NCBI GenBank assembly: GCA_900318665.1
Contig: ONLQ01000021.1
Coordinates: 1 to 34,396, forward strand
Length of the DNA: 34,396 nucleotides
Direction of reading: 5' to 3'
From: an uncultured Bacteroidales bacterium
GTDB lineage: Bacteria > Bacteroidota > Bacteroidia > Bacteroidales > P3
Position 1 is the stretch's first letter. Each line of letters opens with the position of its first letter. The notes under the pieces were generated by a model. That model made no database searches and was not told the DNA's origin. It saw only the letters and a program-made list of their open reading frames with translations. Below are positions 6,110 through 27,739 of this stretch, piece after piece. The position numbers and the translations under genes are program-made.

Positions 6110-6117
6110 TATATTTG
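6110..6117 (+). promoter_or_regulatory. -7 promoter element upstream of structured RNA-1
   Basis: TATATTTG matches TAnnTTTG perfectly and is followed by GC, as often seen in this phylum. It points toward RNA-1 and the secreted-protein gene at 6469. The -33 box is poor. Transcription would begin near 6123. Confidence 0.6.
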
Positions 6118-6180
6118 CAAGCGATTTTAACTGAATATTAACGAAAATAATTGCCAATGAAGCATAGCGCATAGTTTATT

Positions 6181-6383
6181 ATGCACATCATAGAATAGAA
6201 AAAAGCGAAGTAGCTTATCTGGTGCTTTTGGAACTTCGACAACTCTAAAAACCCTTCCAGACCGAGCGACAACGTTCTCGCGTTAAGCGTGGACTTGTAC
6301 GTTGTAATTGGAAGGATTAGGTAGTCGAAGACCTCAAAAGCACCGATGAAGACTTAAAAGTTCCACGCTCTTTTTATGTGCAT
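6181..6383 (+). ncRNA. Structured RNA-1: long interrupted rod, homologous to RNA-2 at 27545-27725
   Basis: Nested stems can be read directly: 6181-6188/6376-6383 (8 bp), 6200-6207/6366-6374 (one bulge), 6221-6230/6335-6344 (10 bp), 6234-6240/6324-6330 (7 bp), 6253-6259/6309-6315 (7 bp) and 6269-6274/6300-6305 (6 bp), with an apical hairpin. A large internal bubble (about 6208-6220 and 6345-6365) separates the closing stems from the main rod, as in 6S RNA. The strand is set by the -7 element at 6110 and a T-run at 6371-6375. The apical sequence AGCGTGGACT (6286-6295), the preceding ACAACG and the 3' CCACGCT are shared with RNA-2. The homologous core is about 6199-6375; the outermost 8-bp stem is specific to this copy. 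Identity as 6S or another Bacteroidales RNA is inference. Confidence 0.65.
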
Positions 6384-6394
6384 TTCTCAACCCT

Positions 6395-6447
6395 CCATCG
6401 GAACTACAAACAAAATCAATTTCAAATAAAAACCGACATGCCGATGG
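6395..6447 (+). promoter_or_regulatory. Leader hairpin between RNA-1 and the secreted-protein gene
   Basis: CCATCGG (6395-6401) pairs perfectly with CCGATGG (6441-6447), ending 21 bases before the ATG at 6469. The same CATCGG can instead pair with CCGATG at 6343-6348 on the 3' side of RNA-1, so two mutually exclusive folds are possible. A regulatory role is inference. Confidence 0.4.
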
Positions 6448-6468
6448 TATATAATAGGCAAAACTAAA

Positions 6469-6891
6469 ATGAAAAAGATTGCACTAATCGTCTTTTTATC
6501 ATTTATAACTGTTTGTGGAATGACCTATGCAAACAATGATTCAAAAAGCAACAAGAATTATAACATAACATTTTCTGATAAAAACGCTTCAGCACCATCC
6601 GCAAGAATTGACAACTTATACTACGACTTAGATAAAGGAACTATAAAGGTCACTGTTGTAATAGATGATGCCGTGCCAGGAAAACATTATAAAGTAAAAG
6701 TCACTCCGAAGAGTCAAGTTAAGGGGACTGTTGTTGAGGGTTCTTTATACTTAGATATATGGGTGGATAACGATAAATATGCAAGATCAACAAAAGGTGA
6801 AGTCGTTTTTCATTGCTATTCTGGTGATGCCAGCAACGCTCCATATTGTAGGGCGTATGATTTCGATGCTACAATTGTGAAAATATTGTGA
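6469..6891 (+). CDS. Small secreted protein, unrecognised family
   Basis: This 140-residue protein starts with a clear signal peptide (MKKIALIVFLSFITVCGMTYA). The mature part is a short, mostly beta-type domain (KGTIKVTVVIDDAVPGKHYKVKVTP, then VVEGSLYLDIWVDNDKYARSTKGEVVFHCY). It has two Cys near the C-terminus (CYSGDASNAPYC) that could form a disulfide in the periplasm. No lipobox or membrane anchor is seen after the signal. Codon use is strikingly A/T-rich compared with the flanking genes, hinting at horizontal acquisition. It lies 86 bases after structured RNA-1 on the same strand and has no other obvious promoter. I do not recognise the family. Confidence 0.75.
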   Translation: MKKIALIVFLSFITVCGMTYANNDSKSNKNYNITFSDKNASAPSARIDNLYYDLDKGTIKVTVVIDDAVPGKHYKVKVTPKSQVKGTVVEGSLYLDIWVDNDKYARSTKGEVVFHCYSGDASNAPYCRAYDFDATIVKIL

Positions 6892-7042: not shown

Positions 7043-7077
7043 AATCGAGCGTGGTTGTAAAATAACCACGCTCGATT
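7043..7077. terminator. Perfect 14-bp hairpin between convergent genes
   Basis: AATCGAGCGTGGTT (7043-7056) pairs with AACCACGCTCGATT (7064-7077) around a 7-base loop. It lies between the end of the secreted-protein gene and the end of comM, so it may terminate both. The flanking T-runs are weak (TTTCAATTTT on the plus side), so a repeat-type palindrome is the alternative. Confidence 0.6.
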
Positions 7078-7128
7078 TCAATTTTGAAGAACCCTTATTA
7101 TGAAAAAAGGAACTCCAACCTATTCCAC

Positions 7129-27003: not shown

Positions 27004-27477
27004 TCACATATTGAAATAAACATATGTTCCGCCTATTGAAACTTTATATCTATAATTTCTAGCAGCCATTCCATCTTGTGTGGAATTTGTTGGATGTGGA
27101 TTGTCCGGATACATGGATTGCCAGTTCTGTTGTCCTAATTGGTTTTGTGAAGTACTATAATTCCAAATCTGACCATTATGGTATCTCAGGTTTACTAGAG
27201 ATGTTCTTCCGTCATTTGAGAAATATACGCCTTGAATGATTCTATCTGAATTATTGCCATAGTTGTTATTATAACCGTTGTTTTGGTAACTTGTTGTTGA
27301 ATTATTGTTATTTCCTTGAAGAAGTGCTTTTCTTACAGCTTGTTCTCCATATTGTTGAATGGCTTCTGCTATTTGACGGTTTAATGCTGGGTCAGATGTC
27401 ATTAGGTCACGTGGAACATACTGAGCGTAGGCAATCGCACTGATGCAAAAGAGCATAATTAACATTAGTTTTTTCAT
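27004..27477 (-). CDS. Secreted Asn-rich protein, unknown function
   Basis: A 157-residue protein with a signal peptide (MKKLMLIMLFCISAIAYAQ). A short helical part (DPALNRQIAEAIQQYGEQAVRKALLQG) is followed by an Asn/Tyr/Gly-rich linker (NNNNSTTSYQNNGYNNNYGNNSD). A C-terminal beta-type domain follows (IIQGVYFSNDGRTSLVNLRYHNGQIWNYSTSQN to NYRYKVSIGGTYVYFNM). I do not recognise the family. The start lies 68 bases downstream of structured RNA-2 on the same strand. This copies the arrangement at 6181-6891, although the two proteins share no visible sequence similarity beyond the signal peptide. Confidence 0.72.
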   Translation of the reverse strand: MKKLMLIMLFCISAIAYAQYVPRDLMTSDPALNRQIAEAIQQYGEQAVRKALLQGNNNNSTTSYQNNGYNNNYGNNSDRIIQGVYFSNDGRTSLVNLRYHNGQIWNYSTSQNQLGQQNWQSMYPDNPHPTNSTQDGMAARNYRYKVSIGGTYVYFNM

Positions 27478-27544
27478 TGTCTAATCCCTAATTTTGTGTC
27501 GGGCGCAACTTTTATTCTTGCGGTGCCTACAAGTTGGAAAAATG

Positions 27545-27725
27545 AAAAAAACAAAGCGTGGCACTGTATGTCTCGCATTGTACTTGATGGTCGTCGGAAT
27601 AACCAGTATCACTAATGGAAAAACAGTCCACGCTATCTGCGTGGAACCGTTGTGCAGCCTTGTGATACTTTGAAAATTTCCGACGTTTTCAAGTACAAGG
27701 AAGCATAACGCTTCAATTAATTTTA
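27545..27725 (-). ncRNA. Structured RNA-2: long interrupted rod, homologous to RNA-1 at 6181-6383
   Basis: Read on the minus strand, the nested stems in plus coordinates are 27554-27559/27708-27713 (6 bp), 27578-27586/27690-27698 (9 bp), 27592-27599/27678-27685 (8 bp), 27605-27612/27662-27669 (8 bp) and the apical 27627-27633/27639-27645 (7 bp); all are perfect. A -7 element sits just upstream and the 3' end runs into TTTGTTTTTTC, so both ends are defined. The apical AGCGTGGACT, the preceding ACAACG, the 5' AAGCG and the 3' CCACGCT plus T-run match RNA-1 in the same order. At about 180 bases this is 6S-like in size and shape. Identity remains unproven. Confidence 0.7.
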
Positions 27726-27731
27726 TGATTG

Positions 27732-27739
27732 CAAATGTA
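27732..27739 (-). promoter_or_regulatory. -7 promoter element of structured RNA-2
   Basis: The minus strand reads TACATTTG, a perfect TAnnTTTG, placing the start near 27725, twelve bases before the first stem of RNA-2. No TTTG -33 box is apparent. Confidence 0.66.

Follow-up and report, generated by a model that had tools for sequence, protein, structure and literature searches.

Of the described RNAs, 6S RNA, riboswitches and attenuators, kissing antisense RNAs and the small RNAs of Bacteroides come closest to the elements analysed here. 6S RNA is a housekeeping RNA encoded by a free-standing gene and present in one or two copies per genome. Like 6S RNA, our elements can be folded as a rod, about 180 nt long and containing internal bubbles, but they have no match to the Rfam 6S family, occur in many copies, lie before genes and possess a predicted second, exclusive fold. 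Riboswitches and attenuators resemble them as 5' gene leaders with two exclusive folds and a terminator-like hairpin before a T-run; here, however, there is no known ligand, the many copies precede unrelated genes, and the half-hairpins could pair with one another. This last feature recalls the CopA-CopT type, in which complementary hairpins kiss by their loops and then pass to an extended duplex, except that both halves would lie in one RNA, in cis. Bacteroides harbours a multicopy sRNA family, FopS, with 14 members (PMC11697453). The FopS and GibS RNAs of Bacteroides thetaiotaomicron share with our elements the multicopy nature and sigma-ABfr-type promoters but, as the same article describes them, measure about 65-70 nt, act in trans and carry a common seed, whereas the present family has about 180 nt, lies before genes and has copy-specific helices (PMC11697453).

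The stretch of DNA analysed (the window, 34,396 nt) is contig C71 of an uncultured Bacteroidales genome of 2.30 Mb in 73 contigs. A sequence-only reading had proposed that it carries two homologous structured RNAs on opposite strands, here RNA-1 (6181..6383, plus strand, from ATGCACAT to its complement ATGTGCAT) and RNA-2 (27545..27725, minus strand). The motifs that it named are present at these sites and in the same order: AAGCG from 6203, ACAACG, AGCGTGGACT from 6286, CCACGCT and a T-run to 6375 in RNA-1, and GAAGCG from 27714, ACAACG, AGCGTGGACT from 27634, CCACGCT and a T-run to 27545 in RNA-2. Outside these motifs a plain alignment of the two is poor, and homology was therefore tested with a covariance model. 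Model R1 (length 167) was built from 23 of 32 prepared sequences of type B, the subtype of RNA-2, nine having been omitted for a shorter input. RNA-1 is absent from the 23, and in a search of the window the model matched it at E 4.2e-8 and 38.5 bits (6201-6371), which bears out the proposed homology; RNA-2, being one of the 23, scored E 6e-27 (27553-27715). Compared with 200 dinucleotide shuffles, RNA-1 (z -5.8) and RNA-2 (z -5.1) each folded more stably than all of them. The 10-base motif AGCGTGGACT on its own is weak evidence, with nine sites in the genome versus two for the reversed control. It was discarded as a family finder, since of the eight sites inspected (all but that on C72) three are family members and five lie elsewhere.

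The genome of the window carries at least 12 copies, ten found by R1 and two of type A by BLAST (C66:2416 and C32:47911), so the window pair, taken by the sequence-only reading for something unusual, is not special. These copies are of visibly different subtypes, A (RNA-1), B (RNA-2), C, D and E; the names are ours, and B2, F and G designate copies from other families, genera or orders. With up to six candidates scored per genome, BLAST matched at least 69 of the 119 genomes of the genus with RNA-1 and at least 105 with a type B copy. Model R1 extended the distribution to at least 149 of 190 genomes and 11 of 12 genera of the taxonomic family (E<=1e-3), to at least 114 of 393 genomes and 69 of 206 genera of the order (E<=1e-4), and to at least 5 of 198 genomes of a phylum sample, namely the genome of the window and four of the same class and a different order; between 7 and 15 candidates were scored per genome in these searches, and the counts are therefore lower bounds. 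Named carriers of the type B pattern are uncultured Bacteroidales, mostly from the ruminant gut (41 stretches). A type F query of a plasmid collection returned seven records, their hosts including Parabacteroides distasonis, Bacteroides finegoldii, B. uniformis, Phocaeicola massiliensis and a Prevotella, and two unannotated contigs of a phage collection were matched as well. On a Parabacteroides plasmid (L190:4001-4142), one copy is truncated at its 5' end, and the nearest listed same-strand gene starts about 380 nt further on. In three genomes (G138, G205 and G362), several copies are located no more than a few hundred bases from the end of a contig, which is what near-identical repeats that break assembly would produce.

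In scans of the window and of sets of 20 and 14 loci, every Rfam family stayed below its cut-off on the element. The two candidates named at the outset were not recovered: 6S RNA is absent from the permissive matches (E up to 5 for the window and up to 1 for each RNA alone), as is Bacteroidales-1 from those of the window, each RNA alone and further loci. Two matches to microRNA families of plants or animals, one of MIR8007 to RNA-1 (E 0.067, 21.5 bits against a cut-off of 195) and one of MIR1514 to the 3' end of RNA-2 (E 0.72, far under its cut-off), are attributed to chance similarity with a long hairpin. Copy number also spoke against 6S RNA, with at least 12 copies in the genome of the window and 5 to 42 matches per genome among 20 genomes picked for many or clustered matches. 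The family was not found in the open-access literature searched, supplements aside, including PMC5704250, PMC11697453, PMC8040213 and PMC7366714; among these articles, PMC8040213 deals with thousands of candidates and might hold the family unnamed. We are thus apparently dealing with an undescribed large family of leader RNAs, present in Bacteroidales of the gut and rumen and in a few further Bacteroidia.

With regard to genomic setting, an ORF of at least 100 aa starts on the same strand within 200 nt of the core end in 84 of 100 copies. An opposite-strand start under the same limits was seen in five, all among the 84 and never alone, while 16 copies have no such ORF on either strand. This position 5' of a same-strand gene (84 versus 5 of 100) is that of an attenuator, and speaks against a housekeeping RNA like 6S; the family is a multicopy leader of unrelated accessory genes. 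The downstream proteins were compiled from 99 same-strand ORFs, from which ten were removed (L020, L051, L053 and L156 as duplicates or near-duplicates, and L019, L028, L033, L170, L183 and L184 as doubtful) and to which that of RNA-2 was added, giving 90. By a simple rule, the N-terminus looks like a signal or membrane segment in 61 of them, and in 71 once an inner Met is accepted, versus 14 of 92 of the largest upstream ORFs (17 with an inner Met). Pfam revealed no common function, the 90 proteins being spread over 45 families with the commonest in five, and hence no shared pathway of the kind expected of genes under a riboswitch. PADLOC assigned seven families, one protein each, and likewise no shared function. 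Among the examples are small lipoproteins; one genome contributes a family of repeat proteins, and a second genome another family that is surface-like. Most copies thus appear to lie directly before one accessory gene, often one predicted to encode a surface or secreted protein.

Individual loci illustrate this arrangement. L045 is a tandem of RNA, gene, RNA and gene. On plasmid pBUN1 of B. uniformis (L187), a copy lies between mobV, coding for a MobV relaxase, and the gene of the class A beta-lactamase MUN-1, directly before the latter, and in P. distasonis a copy is found 5' of a DUF4433 gene and 3' of toprim and hypothetical genes. Two loci from different taxonomic families (L010 and L281) carry after the RNA short lipoproteins that are similar by eye (YTYAKGKQ and YEYARGKQ), a likeness that suggests an old link between RNA and gene. 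The cis-regulatory candidate DUF805b RNA (RF02914) adjoins one type E copy, lying between it and its gene (L123:1386-1421, minus strand; 36.1 bits, cut-off 35.6); it differs from the present family as a separate 35-nt motif outside the family core, and is absent at both window copies.

TAnnTTTG is the Bacteroidota promoter consensus. A loose promoter pattern was present upstream of 25 of 31 type A loci (the match at L015 looks like chance) versus 4% of random nearby windows, and of 30 of 31 type B loci versus 7%. Where type A copies lack the pattern, as at L038 and L040, they lie close behind the upstream gene. The promoter-like boxes of the window copies are TATATTTGCA upstream of RNA-1 (6110..6119, plus strand), a -7 box, and TACATTTGCA upstream of RNA-2 (27730..27739, minus strand). 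At the other end of the element, at least five T occur within the nine bases after the 3' arm in 95 of 100 copies, versus 12% of background windows.

Two alternative structures are predicted for the RNA. In the first, state R, the 5' half would pair with the 3' half through helices P1, P2 and P3 to form a rod, hairpin P4 would hold the 5' arm of the terminator, and the 5' end would pair with the 3' arm. In the second, state K, each half would form its own long hairpin; that of the 3' half, AGCGUGG...CCACGCU topped by the inner stem GGY/RCC, would stand before the T-run like an intrinsic terminator, and the hairpin loops would still be able to pair through P2.

In RNA-1 (plus strand), RNAalifold places the 5' strand of P1 at 6221..6230 (partner 6335-6344), that of P2, CTTCGAC, at 6234..6240 (partner 6324-6330) and that of P3 at 6252..6259 (partner about 6309-6315), P1 and P3 being those of the permutation tests below. 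The apical hairpin P4 (6264..6305) overlaps the terminator-like 5' arm AGCGTGGACTTGT (6286..6298), whose 3' arm (6352..6369) ends in CCACGCT and runs into the T-run (6370..6375); neither arm has covariation support within type A. A downstream segment, CGGAACTAC (6399..6407), could pair with GTTCC of the 3' arm, and the gene that follows (6469..6891) would encode a 140-aa protein with a signal-like N-terminal segment and no Pfam match. Between the two, a pre-start motif, ACCGACATGCCGATGGTATATAA (6432-6454), is present after many type A copies. Upstream, a tiny frame, ATG AAG CAT AGC GCA TAG (6157-6174), is largely conserved in type A leaders and could represent a leader peptide or merely hairpin sequence. 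Further on, between the gene of RNA-1 and a ComM-like gene, lies a terminator-like hairpin (7043-7080) with arms that are likewise AGCGTGG and CCACGCT.

In RNA-2 (minus strand), the 5' strand GAAGCGTTATGCTT (27701..27714) has as its partner in the type B alignment either the 3' end, as in the rod, or the segment before P4. The outer stem of the 5'-half hairpin, CCTTGT (27695..27700) with ACAAGG (27658-27663), is supported by covariation, and column counts support the 5' strand of P2, CGTCGGAA (27678..27685, partner 27592-27599), and the terminator-like arms AGCGTGGACTGT (27623..27634) and ACAGTGCCACGCT (27555..27567). Hairpin P4 (27625..27648), indicated by folding and column counts, would sequester the terminator-like 5' arm. 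After the T-run TTTGTTTTTTT (27545..27555), a downstream segment, AGGCACCGC (27520..27528), could pair with the 3' arm, and the predicted gene (27004..27477) codes for 157 aa with a signal-like N-terminal segment and no Pfam match. Directly before its start codon lies the motif GTTGCGCCCGACAC (27496-27509), often then followed by AGGGATT. The same motif occurs after several other type B copies of this genome (on C43, C66 and others), with six sites in the genome at up to one mismatch versus none for the control.

Covariation was analysed in a set drawn from 100 loci, in which 121 matches were found; 101 full sense copies were kept and 20 reverse-strand or partial matches dropped. RNAalifold of 31 type A and 31 type B sequences gave a rod with many compensatory pairs. 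Folded alone, the 3' half formed a long hairpin before the T-run in 16 of 16 copies examined, covering all eight subtype labels; in types C and G its arms comprise some 19 to 26 pairs. Permutation tests were run within groups A (30 copies), B, F and a mixed group of C, D, E and G (11 copies together), counting identical segment pairs once and leaving relatedness among sequences in place; L171, with a misassigned P2, was excluded, and the second copy of L045 retained though its P2 looked misassigned. For P1 and P3, which join the two halves, each of the four groups showed own pairings far stabler than permuted ones (p=0.0005, the test floor). The 5'-half hairpin gave p=0.0005 in B, 0.0015 in F, 0.0005 in C/D/E/G and 0.08 in A, and the 3'-half hairpin 0.0005 in C/D/E/G, 0.016 in F, 0.031 in B and 0.9955 in A. 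Two of eight control tests also fell below 0.05 (0.0085 in A and 0.029 in F), and the 3'-half values in B and F are therefore only suggestive by themselves. The GGY/RCC inner stem of the 3' hairpin consists of 90 U-A and 9 C-G pairs, with no mispairing among the 99 copies scored (one of 100 was not scorable). In type A, the terminator arms pair no better with their own partner (-18.3 kcal/mol) than with mismatched ones (-18.5 and -19.2 kcal/mol). For this subtype, that of RNA-1, covariation supports the rod and not the K hairpins.

The alignment of 23 type B sequences allowed both states to be followed by column. A blind helix scan placed at the top P3, the outer stem of the 5' half, P1 and the inner 5' stem. 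The state K columns are paired in 93.0% of cells, with 16 pairs changed on both sides, and those of state R in 96.7%, with 18 such pairs. Pairing, double changes and covariation scores were reached by none of 500 shuffles for either state, while the number of further pair types was no higher than in shuffles (reached by 146 of 500 for K and by 124 of 500 for R). When the helix partners were slid, pairing fell to 34-52%. The two sets use common columns (9-14, 31-33, 93-102, 116, 140, 157-158 and 172-175 of the A2 alignment), and those pairs therefore cannot form together. Mutually exclusive conserved helices are thus found in B by columns, and in B, F and C/D/E/G by permutation; type A has the rod only. 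An additional helix, between the 3' arm and the segment before the start codon, covaries in A, B/B2 and F (p=0.0003 each). Folded separately, the two halves together fall short of the stability of the full fold by 10 to 21 kcal/mol (group means), a deficit that, by our estimate, the loop-loop helix P2, mostly of 7-9 pairs, could partly repay. In Watson-Crick columns, G-U exceeds A-C by 150 to 27 in type B and by 77 to 55 in type A, which points to folding of the gene-sense strand, clearly in B and weakly in A.

The sequence-only reading had supposed that the stems are preserved through compensatory change, and would have given up the RNA had such changes been absent in other genomes; the covariation confirms the former, and the comparison with other genomes came out in favour of an RNA. 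Its rod shape has to be qualified: the rod helices are well supported, and a simple rod is not, since most subtypes also fold each half into a hairpin that excludes it.

Taking the RNA, the same-strand gene after it, the T-run and the covariation of two exclusive structures as what the sequences themselves offer, we propose, with a probability of roughly two in three, that this multicopy leader of Bacteroidia is a cis-acting, bistable, riboswitch-like transcription attenuator of accessory genes. State K would halt transcription ahead of the gene and state R would permit read-through, the balance between them being set by some signal, protein or transcription speed, and the helix joining the 3' arm to the pre-start segment would lock the RNA in its read-through form. 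Since the downstream genes are unrelated, we expect the input to be some general condition or factor, and not the metabolite of a pathway. Counting against an attenuator are the lack of a common pathway downstream, the 16 of 100 copies without a near ORF, the lack of 3'-half stem covariation in type A, and the type A copies that have no promoter pattern.

Three other explanations were weighed. The promoter-like box of most type A and B copies, the strong T-run and the rod shape would also suit a separate, terminated transcript of about 180 nt acting in trans, whether 6S-like or base-pairing, the gene being an occasional read-through product, and multicopy sRNA families are known in Bacteroides (FopS). 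We consider this unlikely: a same-strand gene follows 84 of 100 copies, gene and RNA share homology blocks in different places, the helices formed with the stretch ahead of the start codon show covariation, and 6S RNA was matched neither in the window nor by each RNA alone. Helix sequences differ between copies within one genome, and therefore no common seed is seen; a FopS-type RNA was set aside for this reason and for the model length of 167. The structures might instead belong to one knotted fold. Processive antitermination can be brought about by RNAs without a protein, as in HK022 put and EAR, and a static fold, with hairpins docked via P2 plus P1 and P3, could bind RNA polymerase or a protein, for instance as such an antiterminator, and not act as a switch. 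Covariation of both helix sets and the compatibility of P2 with both states would agree with it; the columns common to the two sets, whose pairs exclude each other, make it improbable.

A quite different explanation places the function in the DNA, as a folded single-strand recombination site (attC-like) or an insertion element that brings accessory genes, the RNA structure being incidental. It draws on signs that the element moves with its gene. Among 12 listed locus pairs, of which the twelfth is a single locus in two genomes and two repeat one comparison (the near-identical L020 and L021), homology of element and gene starts between -104 and +23 of the element start in 11, and the upstream flanks differ. 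In a flank survey in which a few loci were cut by contig ends and R1 was weak for type A, the element was present at the phosphoglucomutase flank in 1 of 29 relatives (L204) and at the DUF4175 gene flank in none of 29, so that matching flanks lacked it in 28 of 29 and 29 of 29. For the window copies no clean empty site was found, as flanks differ and L201, L203, L219 and L247 end early. On Bacteroides elements, moreover, copies stand between mobilization- or replication-type genes and cargo. Homology that starts near the element and rare flank occupancy therefore make element and gene look like a unit with fast turnover of place. As for a role of the DNA itself, we regard it as very improbable, given that in type B the gene-sense strand shows far more G-U than A-C, that the promoter-like box, the T-run and the start-codon-region helix fit an RNA, and that by eye no integron-type core site is conserved across subtypes.

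The attenuator reading can be carried a step further, albeit tentatively and at less than even odds. The RNA may be a portable switch that travels with accessory genes across the class Bacteroidia and gives horizontally acquired genes on/off control independent of the gene itself, each copy being self-specific through its own loop-loop helix; these genes would code for surface proteins, joined by defence-like and resistance cargo on the mobile elements of Bacteroides.

If the proposal is true, one undescribed RNA family, with up to 42 matches in a single genome among the 20 picked, would control numerous accessory genes in bacteria that dominate the gut and rumen, the cargo of mobile elements included. 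It would give studies of RNA folding a large natural collection of strongly covarying candidates for bistable RNAs, and would offer a testable answer to how Bacteroidota keep the surface, defence and resistance genes that they acquire silent or inducible.
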